Source: Prevotella sp. (lineage in GTDB: Bacteria; Bacteroidota; Bacteroidia; Bacteroidales; Bacteroidaceae). Taken from it: a DNA stretch of 41,331 nucleotides. Both the position numbers and the translations under genes were made by a program. The stretch is taken from contig JAFVGS010000090.1 of NCBI GenBank assembly GCA_017474845.1, forward strand, positions 1-41,331. The letters run 5' to 3'. Shown here piece by piece: positions 36,201-37,337 of the stretch. Each line of letters starts with the position of its first letter. Position 1 is the first letter of the stretch. Under the pieces are notes generated by a model. It ran no database searches. It worked only from the letters and a program-made list of their open reading frames with translations, and was not told where the DNA came from.

Positions 36201-36740
36201 TACACTGGTGGTTCTCAGGGCTATACCTATCAGGGGGCTGCGTTTTGCGAGCAGAGCCTTGTGAAATGTATAGAGGCATTCCGTGATGCTGGTATCTTCA
36301 ATGATTCCTGCGTAGTATATCCCGGCAGCAGCGGCACCAACTCAGATGTTGTTGGCGTGATAAAAAATTGGGTAGAGTTCGCACTGACAGCCACGACAGA
36401 CAATGACCCTTACAACGCCGAAATAAAAAACCCGTTCAATATTCGCCGTATGTTCCTGAACTTCGGCAGCAGCACCCGAACCGTTGACTACTACAAGGCA
36501 CAGGTTGATGCAGCTTTCGCGGCTGGGGCATGGATTATCTTCGGCACCCATTCAGCTCAGGCTGTTGATGACTTAGACAATCCGACCTCTGACACTTCTG
36601 CGTTGACTCTCAGCAATATCAAGAAGGTTGTTCAGTATGCACTTTCAAAGAGCCAAGGAATTACCATTCAACCCTTGCGCAAGGTGTGGAATGGGCGGAA
36701 GCTGATGCTGGGACTCTGGACGGGGAACCCCAGCCTGTGA
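33231..36740 (+). CDS. Tail fibre with C-terminal polysaccharide-deacetylase-like domain
   Basis: 1169 residues. N-terminal attachment part, then triple coiled-coil repeats (TALTALAGRVTALEGAGY, RVAADNLLDGRVTALEKA, EADTLLDGRVGTLESTIAA). From about residue 895 a NodB/CE4-like domain: Asp907-909 (SWVDDDF), His980 and His984 (HFQLHP, the HxxxHP metal motif), Pro1031 in VVYPGSSGTNS and His1107 (IFGTHSA). Such enzymes remove acetyl groups from surface polysaccharide, so the fibre probably recognises and deacetylates host capsule. DNA from about 34950 on is clearly more AT-rich than upstream, the mark of an exchanged host-range module. Confidence 0.82.
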   Translation: MKDLNTVPSNGTYGAAIALVNQNFTLVKEQLEHLLYMREGFCGMYETSAALLSAHPNPVAGSFAYVGRAFPMAVYMVSNGSWYATQETYDGGDIDLTQYATSTALTALAGRVTALEGAGYLFAGVASPAASINLNGNTSKIFLLAFAPGTYTNYGGLTLSDGEIGVLYFNGSTWRGNKATDIMAKGIVGGYDETPTEDSEKPITSGGVFDALNGLRQEFNEGLSEVNPQFATGEKVGAVSIVSRPGSGTDAVMTQAAVSGTVFNEIAIDDIDDIIFNGGQLTPNPAFAGSESGVPAYYTVYDGTSHKLKVGVMSVISDNMGHVVTQVMATHYVLDDSGQITGAHSDSDLFLIYRSAKLSGGTLPTEVGDWTPWNYVNNSLLTNAIASIRTDLLGYYLKTETYSKEQVNALIDAINQFEYAVVAQLPTASSSTRHKIYLVPSTNPDTSNVKDEFITITTTQNGVIRYSWEQIGSTTVDLGGYSTTAQMNSAISSAVAAETALRVAADNLLDGRVTALEKASASLQESIDGEAIARENAVSDEASLREEADTLLDGRVGTLESTIAAADDVPTAGSDNLVKSGGVADKTNKVYYRSIFQPSATGSLIGDIDRIIKELYISPADLGEDDASKFCIQNIRRNVNGTWYVNLYFFNEGEGTQRLRFNSQKQKGEVEVIRTSNESYCVVDWSQLEDGGSVYIAPSKVSDYLLNGDYVTDIDNFPISKDATRLRSAEGNIGRLNTSVNNLTSKMSSLERNTFPFATAVGKFIRTNGSVGTAGAAQIMHWCMTDLIPLDYFVSANSVFFGTTEDIVLKNCYCRPGSDAPYCLFFDEEKNVITAPGGYIMGESESKADVTLSWGDNIPENAKYVRINFHSDGYIENLNPSSGGGTSSSVDEEFVEKFNKYAVSWVDDDFKITEESGEITENYPAKIKIICDELSGKCDFAVIPTSDGNWSGSNYPTNDTQVIPQYKADIIKAWQREGFHFQLHPIHKGWYTGGSQGYTYQGAAFCEQSLVKCIEAFRDAGIFNDSCVVYPGSSGTNSDVVGVIKNWVEFALTATTDNDPYNAEIKNPFNIRRMFLNFGSSTRTVDYYKAQVDAAFAAGAWIIFGTHSAQAVDDLDNPTSDTSALTLSNIKKVVQYALSKSQGITIQPLRKVWNGRKLMLGLWTGNPSL

Positions 36741-36904
36741 AGTTCAAGTTCGGTACTGACTAGCAGCCGAAGTATCGGGTGTTTGAAAGACTGGAGGAAC
36801 TGGCGGACTTCTACACGAAGGCCATGCGCTTTATCCAAGAAACGCTGGATGCGGGATGGCGGAAGAAAGACGCATTCAATCCGGATGACTATCGGGATGA
36901 ATAA
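36686..36904 (+). pseudogene. Small tail-end protein interrupted by an amber codon
   Basis: A frame beginning GTG 36686 overlaps the fibre 3' end: VEWAEADAGTLDGEPQPVKF, KFGTD, TAG (36761), then QPKYRVFERLEELADFYTKA and MRFIQETLDAGWRKKDAFNP to TAA at 36904. Protein-like composition continues smoothly across the TAG, so I read it as one small gene with a nonsense mutation or readthrough. Similar short proteins follow fibre genes in Bacteroidetes phages as I recall. Without readthrough only a 26-residue piece from ATG 36824 could be made. Confidence 0.55.
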
Positions 36905-36937
36905 ACTCTGACGGAAAGCCCTTGGGGGTGGGCATAG

Positions 36938-37067
36938 AAAAAGCCCCCAGCCTGTTAATATAGACGCCAATCATTTATTAACGACGTACCCTTACGGAAC
37001 GCAGCTGGGGGCTGTATGCCCTTCGCCGTTCCATAAGGGTATTTTTTTGTCGAATAAATGATTGGCG
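36938..37067 (-). ncRNA. Candidate structured phage RNA with pseudoknot-like fold
   Basis: Leftward unit of about 130 nt. -7 box TACCTTTG (complement of 37071-37078) places the start at the outer stem. Stem 1 is CGCCAATCATTTATT, 15 bp perfect, with 36965-36979 pairing to 37053-37067. Then CGAC/GTCG (36982-36985 with 37049-37052), TACCCTTA/TAAGGGTA (36987-36994 with 37034-37041) and GGAACG/CGTTCC (36996-37001 with 37027-37032). The 25-base apical loop carries GCTGGGGGCT (37004-37013), which pairs perfectly with 36942-36951 outside the hairpin; five T follow on the minus strand (36938-36942). No reading frame. Function unknown. Confidence 0.65.
36987..37048 (+). terminator. Rightward terminator of the tail operon
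   Basis: TACCCTTAcGGAACG pairs with CGTTCCaTAAGGGTA and is followed by seven T (37042-37048). It would stop rightward transcripts of the tail genes, using the same DNA that encodes the leftward RNA candidate. Confidence 0.65.
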
Positions 37068-37070
37068 GTA

Positions 37071-37078
37071 CAAAGGTA
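37071..37078 (-). promoter_or_regulatory. -7 promoter box (TACCTTTG) for the leftward RNA
   Basis: Perfect TAnnTTTG match on the minus strand, about seven bases before the outer hairpin arm. There is no leftward gene downstream for it to serve other than the RNA candidate. Confidence 0.6.
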
Positions 37079-37094
37079 CAAAAAAATCTTGAAA

Positions 37095-37337
37095 ATGACT
37101 TACTACGAGATAATAAAATTGAGTAAGGAGCCTATTGACAGGCTAAATTCGGCTGGTTTCAGGCTTGAAGACTGCCAGTATCTGGCACTTTATGAGGACT
37201 ACAGGCGCATGCATGAGGCTGGGGACAAGATGACTTACATCGTGTCGGTGCTCCACGACCGTTACCATGTGTGCGAGCGCAAGGTATATGACCTGATCAA
37301 GCGGTTTGGAAGGCACTGCACGATTGGTGCAGTGTGA
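37095..37337 (+). CDS. Small Mor-like HTH protein, unknown role
   Basis: 80 residues from ATG 37095 (MTYYEIIKLSKEPIDRLNSA). GFRLEDCQYLALYEDYRRMH is followed by MTYIVSVLHDRYHVCERKVY and DLIKRFGR, a HTH of the shape found at the C-terminus of Mor/C-type activators. It lies between tail genes and the methylase, as in other Bacteroidetes Mu-like phages I recall. No rightward promoter box is seen directly upstream, and the tail operon terminator lies before it. DNA-binding is likely, target unknown. Confidence 0.65.
   Translation: MTYYEIIKLSKEPIDRLNSAGFRLEDCQYLALYEDYRRMHEAGDKMTYIVSVLHDRYHVCERKVYDLIKRFGRHCTIGAV

Follow-up and report, generated by a model that had tools for sequence, protein, structure and literature searches.

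Mu-like phages of gut Bacteroides and Prevotella appear to have a small RNA gene that has retained its knotted shape through changes of its letters. In the window (the whole stretch of Prevotella sp. DNA analysed, 41331 bases) we predict such a gene at 36938-37067 on the minus strand; it lies in a hankyphage-like prophage and would yield a leftward RNA of about 130 nt. Comparison with homologs establishes the strand, the helices, the promoter box and the T run, and from these we infer transcription itself. The window RNA scores 129.3 bits against our covariance model R1, with the window sequence itself among the 45 of that model. The features of the locus are as follows.

36938-37067, minus strand: predicted RNA, outer stem through T run (based on the promoter spacing and the T run of homologs)
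37071-37078, minus strand: -7 promoter box TACCTTTG of the TAnnTTTG type, read from the sequence
37053-37067, minus strand: 5' arm of outer stem P1, CGCCAATCATTTATT, pairing with 36965-36979 over 15 bp
36965-36979, minus strand: 3' arm of P1, partner 37053-37067 (sequence and covariation)
37049-37052, minus strand: 5' arm of short stem P2, 4 bp with 36982-36985 (sequence and minimum-energy fold)
36982-36985, minus strand: 3' arm of P2, partner 37049-37052 (sequence and minimum-energy fold)
37042-37048, minus strand: A7 bulge, corresponding to T7 behind the inner stem on the plus strand; possible rightward terminator
37027-37041, minus strand: 5' arm of inner stem P3, 15 positions with 36987-37001; the sequence differs between phages, the pairing stays
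36987-37001, minus strand: 3' arm of P3, partner 37027-37041, with one U-G pair in the leftward reading
37018-37021, minus strand: candidate loop helix P4, GGGC, partner GCCC at 37009-37012 (minimum-energy fold only)
37004-37013, minus strand: loop strand of the pseudoknot PK, AGCCCCCAGC (plus-strand letters GCTGGGGGCT), partner 36942-36951
36942-36951, minus strand: tail strand of PK, GCTGGGGGCT, 10 bases complementary to the apical loop at 37004-37013
36976-36982, minus strand: 5' strand of helix P6, GTTAATA, partner 36954-36960, overlapping the top of the P1 3' arm
36954-36960, minus strand: 3' strand of P6, TATTAAC, immediately ahead of the pseudoknot tail
36938-36942, minus strand: T run, predicted 3' end (sequence and homologs)
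36924-36928, minus strand: downstream C run (GGGGG on the plus strand), possible competitor for the G run of the tail
36722-36901, plus strand: avd remnant, last 60 codons (tblastn 65% over 60 aa to hankyphage avd)
37095-37337, plus strand: divergent small gene of 80 aa, "Mor-like" after the annotation of a relative in PQ571268

A preliminary description made from the sequence had listed the -7 box, the outer stem, the match between loop and tail, the T run and a second GGGGG, and all of these are in place. Its stems of 4, 8 and 6 bp are likewise present, the latter two being the halves of one inner stem, P3. Two features had not been described before, the T7 on the plus strand after the inner stem and helix P6 (36976-36982 with 36954-36960).

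Homologs and compensating changes

Homologs were collected by BLAST of phage records, with a gapped DNA pattern run on viral contigs (50 stretches), through protein relatives of the adjacent gene and with two covariance models, R1 built from 45 sequences and R2 from 73. The first homologs came from a DNA pattern that fixed parts of P1 and of the tail, and both models derive from them. A 14-base scan gave at least 120 stretches, from which the loci L023, L031, L043, L065, L077 and L106 were taken. Opposite-strand echoes of the palindrome in the covariance searches were excluded as homologs, and L193, L195, L236 and L259 were discarded as false matches on inspection of their sequences. Model R1 matched in 9 of 393 Bacteroidales genomes (own genome included, and one of them, G205, false on inspection), in 33 of 301 genomes of the window's family, a set that overlaps the former and whose matches were inspected in part (G423 and G496, at 48-49 bits, standing as model matches), and in 9 of 40 genomes of genus g2, G688 among them being false. 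Model R2 matched in 5 genomes of a set of 40 relatives, the own genome counted among them; across the phylum, under strict filters that lose weak matches, it matched in 2 of 395 genomes, the own genome and G059, a member of the same family. By BLAST, 23 phage records match some part of a 701-base stretch centred on the locus, none over 80% of it.

The right end of the window matches Bacteroides hankyphages (phage p00 and relatives), and PHROG matches among the genes of the window include transposase, DNA transposition protein, terminase, portal and head protease. Judged by the adjacent protein, the nearest genome records are MAGs under the names Prevotellaceae, Prevotella and Bacteroidaceae. 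In the own genome the RNA is present on contigs C74 (the window, 41331 bases) and C14 (41369 bases), with an identical copy of 186 bases, and three copies with equal scores were found in G1125; both the duplicate locus and the triple one are as expected of a transposable phage.

The structure made up of P1, P3, P6 and the pseudoknot counts 39 pairs and was scored in 73 aligned homologs (70 distinct), in an alignment fitted to P1 and P3 with P6 and the pseudoknot outside the fit. Standard pairs fill 96.1% of the cells, compared with 78.1% in shuffles and 34-44% when the partners are slid; changes on both sides were seen in 35 of the 39 pairs, and none of 500 shuffles reached any of these measures. 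All 12 modelled pairs of P1 (98.4% paired) and all 12 of P3 (96.5% paired) show both-side changes. In the pseudoknot, 98.9% paired, this holds for 5 of 9 pairs, and its types include CCCCCAGC/GCTGGGGG, CCCTCGGC/GCCGGGGG and CCTCCAG/CTGGAGG. Helix P6 is less well kept (82.6 and 87.4% paired), with both-side changes in 6 of 6 modelled pairs; its mean score over 58 distinct pairs is 6.69, compared with 5.78 ± 0.13 (maximum 6.12 in 300 trials) when partners are swapped between homologs and 4.12 with shuffled linkers. Outer stems that are wholly unlike in sequence and yet paired occur in L187-L192, L215-L217 and L219-L222. The leftward RNA of the preliminary description, which has a promoter box of its own, nested stems and a pseudoknot between loop and tail, is supported by the compensating changes; that description would have counted homologous stems lacking such changes against the RNA, and what we found is that stems and pseudoknot covary. 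At the level of sequence comparison, the set defined by R1 and R2 qualifies as an RNA family in which P1, P3, the pseudoknot and P6 are kept through compensating changes.

The exchange of letters can also be followed between close relatives. We compared 35 locus pairs with at least 93% gene-side identity, and the RNA was identical in 16 of them, some of which represent the same phage twice. Loci L172 and L149 agree to 100% over 200 bp on one side and to 95.8% over 240 bp on the other, while their RNAs share 74.8% and the inner stem differs in both arms. For L043 and L130 the flanks are 93.0% and 99.2% identical and the RNA 88.1%. In L127 (3225-3329, phage jmh47, a record marked UNVERIFIED) changes in the 5' arm of the inner stem, absent in jmh72, weaken the pairing; they could be either sequencing errors or marks of a decaying copy.

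Reading direction, predicted transcript ends and competing helices

The coding strand was judged from G-U against A-C pairs in the leftward reading, counted by distinct allele, where an A-C pair corresponds to G-U on the other strand. The ratio is 22:0 over 48 alleles for P1, 33:3 over 42 for the pseudoknot and 35:17 over 67 for P3. Loci found outside the fixed DNA patterns, which are not wholly independent because they come mostly from model R1, gave 13:0 for P1 (27 alleles), 18:11 for P3 (35) and 15:2 for the pseudoknot (26). An earlier count with wider limits over 77 sequences, without allele reduction and with some outer stems misplaced, had yielded 40:10, 43:27 and 49:3 for P1, P3 and the pseudoknot, respectively. 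The G-U excess argues that the outer stem and the pseudoknot belong to a leftward RNA. The weaker bias of P3 (2:1) is in line with a second job, the stopping of rightward transcripts, and part of its conservation may serve the plus strand. An A4 run (a T run on the plus strand) was scored before the inner stem in 59 of 77 distinct homologs; in five of the other 18 it lies slightly further in, and 13 have none.

Ahead of the outer stem the TAnnTTTG box is present in 75 of 77 distinct homologs, in 61 of those 75 at 11-12 nt, where mononucleotide shuffles lead one to expect about 2.2 of 77. Behind the G run of the tail, 73 of 77 have a T4 run; the script favoured G runs followed by Ts, which biases this count upward. 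Given the promoter box and the T run, the transcript should begin at the outer stem and end behind the pseudoknot. The locus does not fit the definition of a mere terminator (a hairpin and a T run, nothing else being conserved); its promoter box, its outer stem and P6 show conservation as well, which bears out the earlier view of an RNA that is not only a terminator.

The nested fold of 36900-37090 has an energy of -72.1 kcal/mol (z -5.6), with none of 200 shuffles as good, and the opposite strand folds equally (z -6.9). A good fold on both strands follows from the palindrome, and since both beat all 200 shuffles folding energy cannot name the strand. The pairing of loop and tail amounts to -24.4 kcal/mol, equalled by 2 of 1000 shuffled tails. 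No match came from a simple terminator scan, which was limited to loops of ≤8 bases and for this reason was blind to either hairpin here.

Several helices compete for the same bases; the preliminary description took the RNA for a switchable one, which it may be. P6 competes with the top of P1, which it overlaps there, and in the minimum-energy fold the C-rich loop strand has a local partner in P4, so that P4 would compete with the pseudoknot; the pattern GG..GCC recurs in 68 of 77 distinct homologs, a count that says nothing on P4 pairing. For the second GGGGG the preliminary description had proposed competition for the same C-rich strand. Most homologs have such a site, in the form of a downstream C run that follows the T run: it matches the G run of the tail over five bases in 52 and over four in 14 of 74 distinct homologs, 66 in all (counted without a chance control). 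In L128 and L131 it reads CCTCC, tracking a GGAGG tail; in L191, where the tail is also GGAGG, no matching downstream C run was found. A hairpin behind the T run (51 of 74) was set aside, as the scoring had let T-G pairs use the T run itself. In L219, L221, L186 and L157 the A-rich bulge that separates the outer from the inner stem seems, by eye, to carry an extra small hairpin.

Copies in phages and in host chromosomes

Hankyphages show the order fibre, template repeat, reverse transcriptase, avd, RNA, Mor-like gene, thymidylate synthase and DNA methyltransferase, the last two being swapped in the window and in some relatives. The position between fibre and modification genes, as first described for the window, is accordingly incomplete: the hankyphage RNA follows avd, of which the window has a remnant. 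No reverse transcriptase match was found in the window by tblastn, and only the 3' end of avd is left of the retroelement behind the fibre gene. Near relatives L043 and L130 retain reverse transcriptase and avd. With hankyphage queries, tblastn found neither of the two in stretches such as L077, L133, L146-L148 and L150, which have kept the RNA, and a tie to the diversity-generating retroelement was rejected on this ground. Nor does the RNA answer to the definition of a retroelement RNA, namely a template-repeat RNA adjoining the reverse transcriptase.

The divergent gene is mostly Mor-like and starts 20-25 nt from the 5' end of the model; elsewhere it is a DNA methyltransferase or a thymidylate synthase. 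The Mor-like protein of the window has no Pfam match, and its PHROG, phrog_17790, is of unknown function. A fixed tie to the Mor-like gene was rejected because another gene takes this place in L145, L152, L157, L159, L175, L186, L188-L190, L192, L218 and L222. Further copies of the stems or the loop in the window were rejected as well, their match counts being at chance level: with the RNA itself set aside, the inner stem gave one site with 3 mismatches (0.67 expected for that pattern), and the outer stem, with five matches in all, gave three sites with 2-3 mismatches (3.65 expected).

The RNA stands in a gene-leader position in 5 of 5 genomes of the Bacteroidales family f60 and at none of the phage loci looked at. 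The preliminary description had seen no leftward gene to serve, which is right for these phage loci and wrong for the f60 relative, which directly precedes an ECF sigma gene. Model R2 finds this distant form of the RNA in 5 of 5 f60 genomes at 32-55 bits and R1 in 3 of 5. Each genome has one sigma-leader copy (L191, L248, L249, L250 and L251), the sigma start lies 20-41 nt behind the RNA, and all five downstream products score above the cut-off of the ECF model. The loop strand GCCTCCGCTG is identical in all five, and the tail is CAGCGGAGGC or 1-2 bases off. Within 100 nt before the sigma start no further TAnnTTTG was found at any of the five loci; in L191, TATAATTTG, one base off the box, precedes the sigma start. 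As no other TAnnTTTG box lies between, the sigma gene is probably read through the RNA, and the order of box, RNA and gene suggests a conditional terminator. In G259 the sigma leader, L251, is the weakest (32.4 bits), and the higher-scoring copy of the same genome, L247, is not a sigma leader.

All five f60 genomes have a rubrerythrin gene inside the same 3 kb; in L191, L248 and L250 it is found on the sigma side, in L249 and L251 on the opposite one (identified by Pfam in G060, by NCBIfam below cut-off in L249 and by eye in the others). PerR-type neighbours were noted in L249 (below cut-off) and L251 (by eye). In 36 further genomes around f60, searched with strict filters, we found no copy and no sigma leader.

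Solo chromosomal copies of the RNA exist as well. L215 has a pyridoxamine phosphate oxidase gene on one side and a LytTR regulator gene on the other, ABC transporter genes adjoin both L216 and its ortholog L237 (87% over 1858 bp), and L238 adjoins a gene that is chromosomal by eye. L216 stands 287 nt ahead of an ABC transporter gene in the same direction (in L228); directly behind L215 and L238 no gene in the same direction was found. L215, L216 and L238 share 267-281 bp, consisting of the RNA and some 115-120 bp behind it. This unit of 267-281 bp (L227 3982-4252; L228 11767-12032) occupies differing chromosomal sites in genus g2, its segment of 115-120 bp carries a CCCGTCC...GGACGGG hairpin (by eye), and the unit in L228 lies near an apparent serine tRNA gene (by eye). 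More distant copies with the loop CCTCCAACG and the tail CGTTGGGGG were observed in L235 and L243, where the translations, read by eye, suggest an integrase gene and a phage gene as neighbours.

Proposed mechanism, alternatives and related RNAs

We think it rather probable that the element is a stand-alone leftward RNA gene of hankyphage-like transposable prophages, with the pseudoknot as its terminator, conditional in f60. The host polymerase would start the RNA at the outer stem, and the hairpin would fold with the C-rich strand held in the apical loop. Once transcribed, the G-rich tail would capture this strand; the resulting pseudoknot would act as the terminator hairpin, the RNA would end at the T run, and the product would be a compact, 3'-knotted RNA of about 130 nt. 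In the phages the RNA itself is presumably the product, because no gene follows, and as most conserved positions are paired, binding of a protein or small molecule is likelier than pairing of an exposed seed with a target. In f60 a related RNA lies between promoter box and ECF sigma gene, and pseudoknot formation there would set whether the polymerase stops or reads on. We are doubtful about a wider reading, offered here as speculation: a class of gated pseudoknot terminators might have served as sensor RNAs, with control in cis of an ECF sigma gene near rubrerythrin and PerR-like genes in some Bacteroidales, and might have been taken by transposable phages as a stand-alone RNA that binds and titrates the same signal or protein in the lysogen, its stems exchanging fast.

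The locus separates two gene blocks of varying content, and its role might be confined to terminating in both directions, or insulating, where the late genes meet the right-end block, the inner stem stopping rightward transcripts, the pseudoknot stopping stray leftward ones and the RNA having no job of its own. The A run that makes a plus-strand T tract behind the inner stem in 59 of 77 distinct homologs agrees with this, and the 35:17 ratio of P3 suggests a constraint on both strands. Such an insulator, however, needs no promoter box at a fixed distance (75 of 77), no covarying outer stem (22:0) and no P6; the A4 run is absent in 13 of 77, including L188, L189, L191, L215 and L216, which keep the leftward box and the pseudoknot, and solo and sigma-leader copies exist. 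We consider this explanation unlikely. It is less probable still that the RNA is a cis antisense RNA that blocks rightward transcripts into the Mor-like gene, including those from a phage of the same stem type, such that an exchange of stems changes the immunity type. The -7 box of the window lies 16 nt before the divergent ATG, so that the RNA covers the leader of that gene, and stems are indeed replaceable between close phages. Antisense RNAs of this kind usually vary in their recognition loops, whereas here the loop is conserved and the stems vary. Moreover, the divergent gene is inconstant (Mor-like, DNA methyltransferase or thymidylate synthase), and the solo copies and f60 leaders have no such partner gene.

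A palindrome that acts as DNA, be it an operator, a replication or transposition site or a small inverted-repeat element, could account for the long perfect inverted repeat, for the good folding of both strands and for the palindromic P6, but it gives no reason for G-U over A-C (22:0, 33:3). The own genome carries the element only in the window and the duplicate contig, where a MITE would be present in many copies, and further matches to either arm in the window are at chance level; we regard a DNA element as very improbable. Least credible of all is a role as the RNA part of the diversity-generating retroelement, for which the hankyphage order of fibre, template repeat, reverse transcriptase, avd and RNA speaks, but the RNA occurs in stretches such as L077, L133, L146-L148 and L150, where tblastn finds neither reverse transcriptase nor avd, the window has kept it without reverse transcriptase, solo chromosomal and sigma-leader copies exist, and the retroelement's own RNA is another family that lies before the reverse transcriptase (RT-3, RF03068).

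The preQ1 and fluoride classes are pseudoknot riboswitches or attenuators with a built-in terminator. Like these, the RNA studied here combines a compact pseudoknot with a terminator, and its f60 copy is placed between a promoter box and a gene. In contrast to them, the 5' arm of the terminator sits in the apical loop of a long hairpin at the predicted start, the phage copies have no following gene, and there is no Rfam match. If true, ending or gating an RNA through a terminator arm placed in the loop of its own first hairpin would be unusual, and in the sigma-leader copies there is a host gene for which a signal can be sought. The P4 CI RNA and the P1 c4 RNA are phage immunity RNAs that act through exposed complementary segments. 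If expressed in lysogens, our RNA would resemble them as a small phage-encoded regulatory RNA; unlike for them, a search of the window with its stem and loop sequences gave no second site beyond chance.

Small RNAs of the Bacteroidaceae include FopS and GibS, described for Bacteroides with sigma-ABfr promoters in PMC11697453, where the FopS sequence is reported in one Caudovirales phage and a family of six small RNAs beside transposases or invertases is mentioned. In this sense FopS and GibS are comparable to the RNA studied here. By that description FopS consists of a single-stranded 5' stretch and a terminator hairpin; membership was rejected, the 5' end of the present RNA being paired in P1. 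The main texts of two hankyphage papers (PMC6199706, PMC12135933), searched by term, contain no mention of the RNA, and the sole 'non-coding' passage found in the latter concerns the template repeat. Among the papers retrieved on hankyphages, Bacteroides phage RNAs, small RNA atlases, FopS and ECF leaders, a set in which subscription journals are thinly covered, none is on this RNA as judged by title and start of the abstract. A structured RNA with a terminator pseudoknot, as predicted here, belongs to a known kind; this one has no match in Rfam and is built unlike FopS. According to PMC12135933, hankyphages occur widely as prophages in gut Bacteroides, and in the laboratory they do not complete their lytic cycle, for causes yet to be identified; a conserved RNA gene that the searched hankyphage texts do not mention is a new part of these phages to examine.

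In Rfam 15 there are no matches above the gathering thresholds in the window; sub-threshold scores at the locus were 20 bits where 59 are needed and 18.6 where 70 are needed. Ten relatives were also scanned and gave no match at the RNA. The studied RNA matches neither RT-3 (RF03068) nor RT-17 (RF03020), which were present in 4 of the 10 scanned relatives of the locus and lie before the reverse transcriptase on the other strand.
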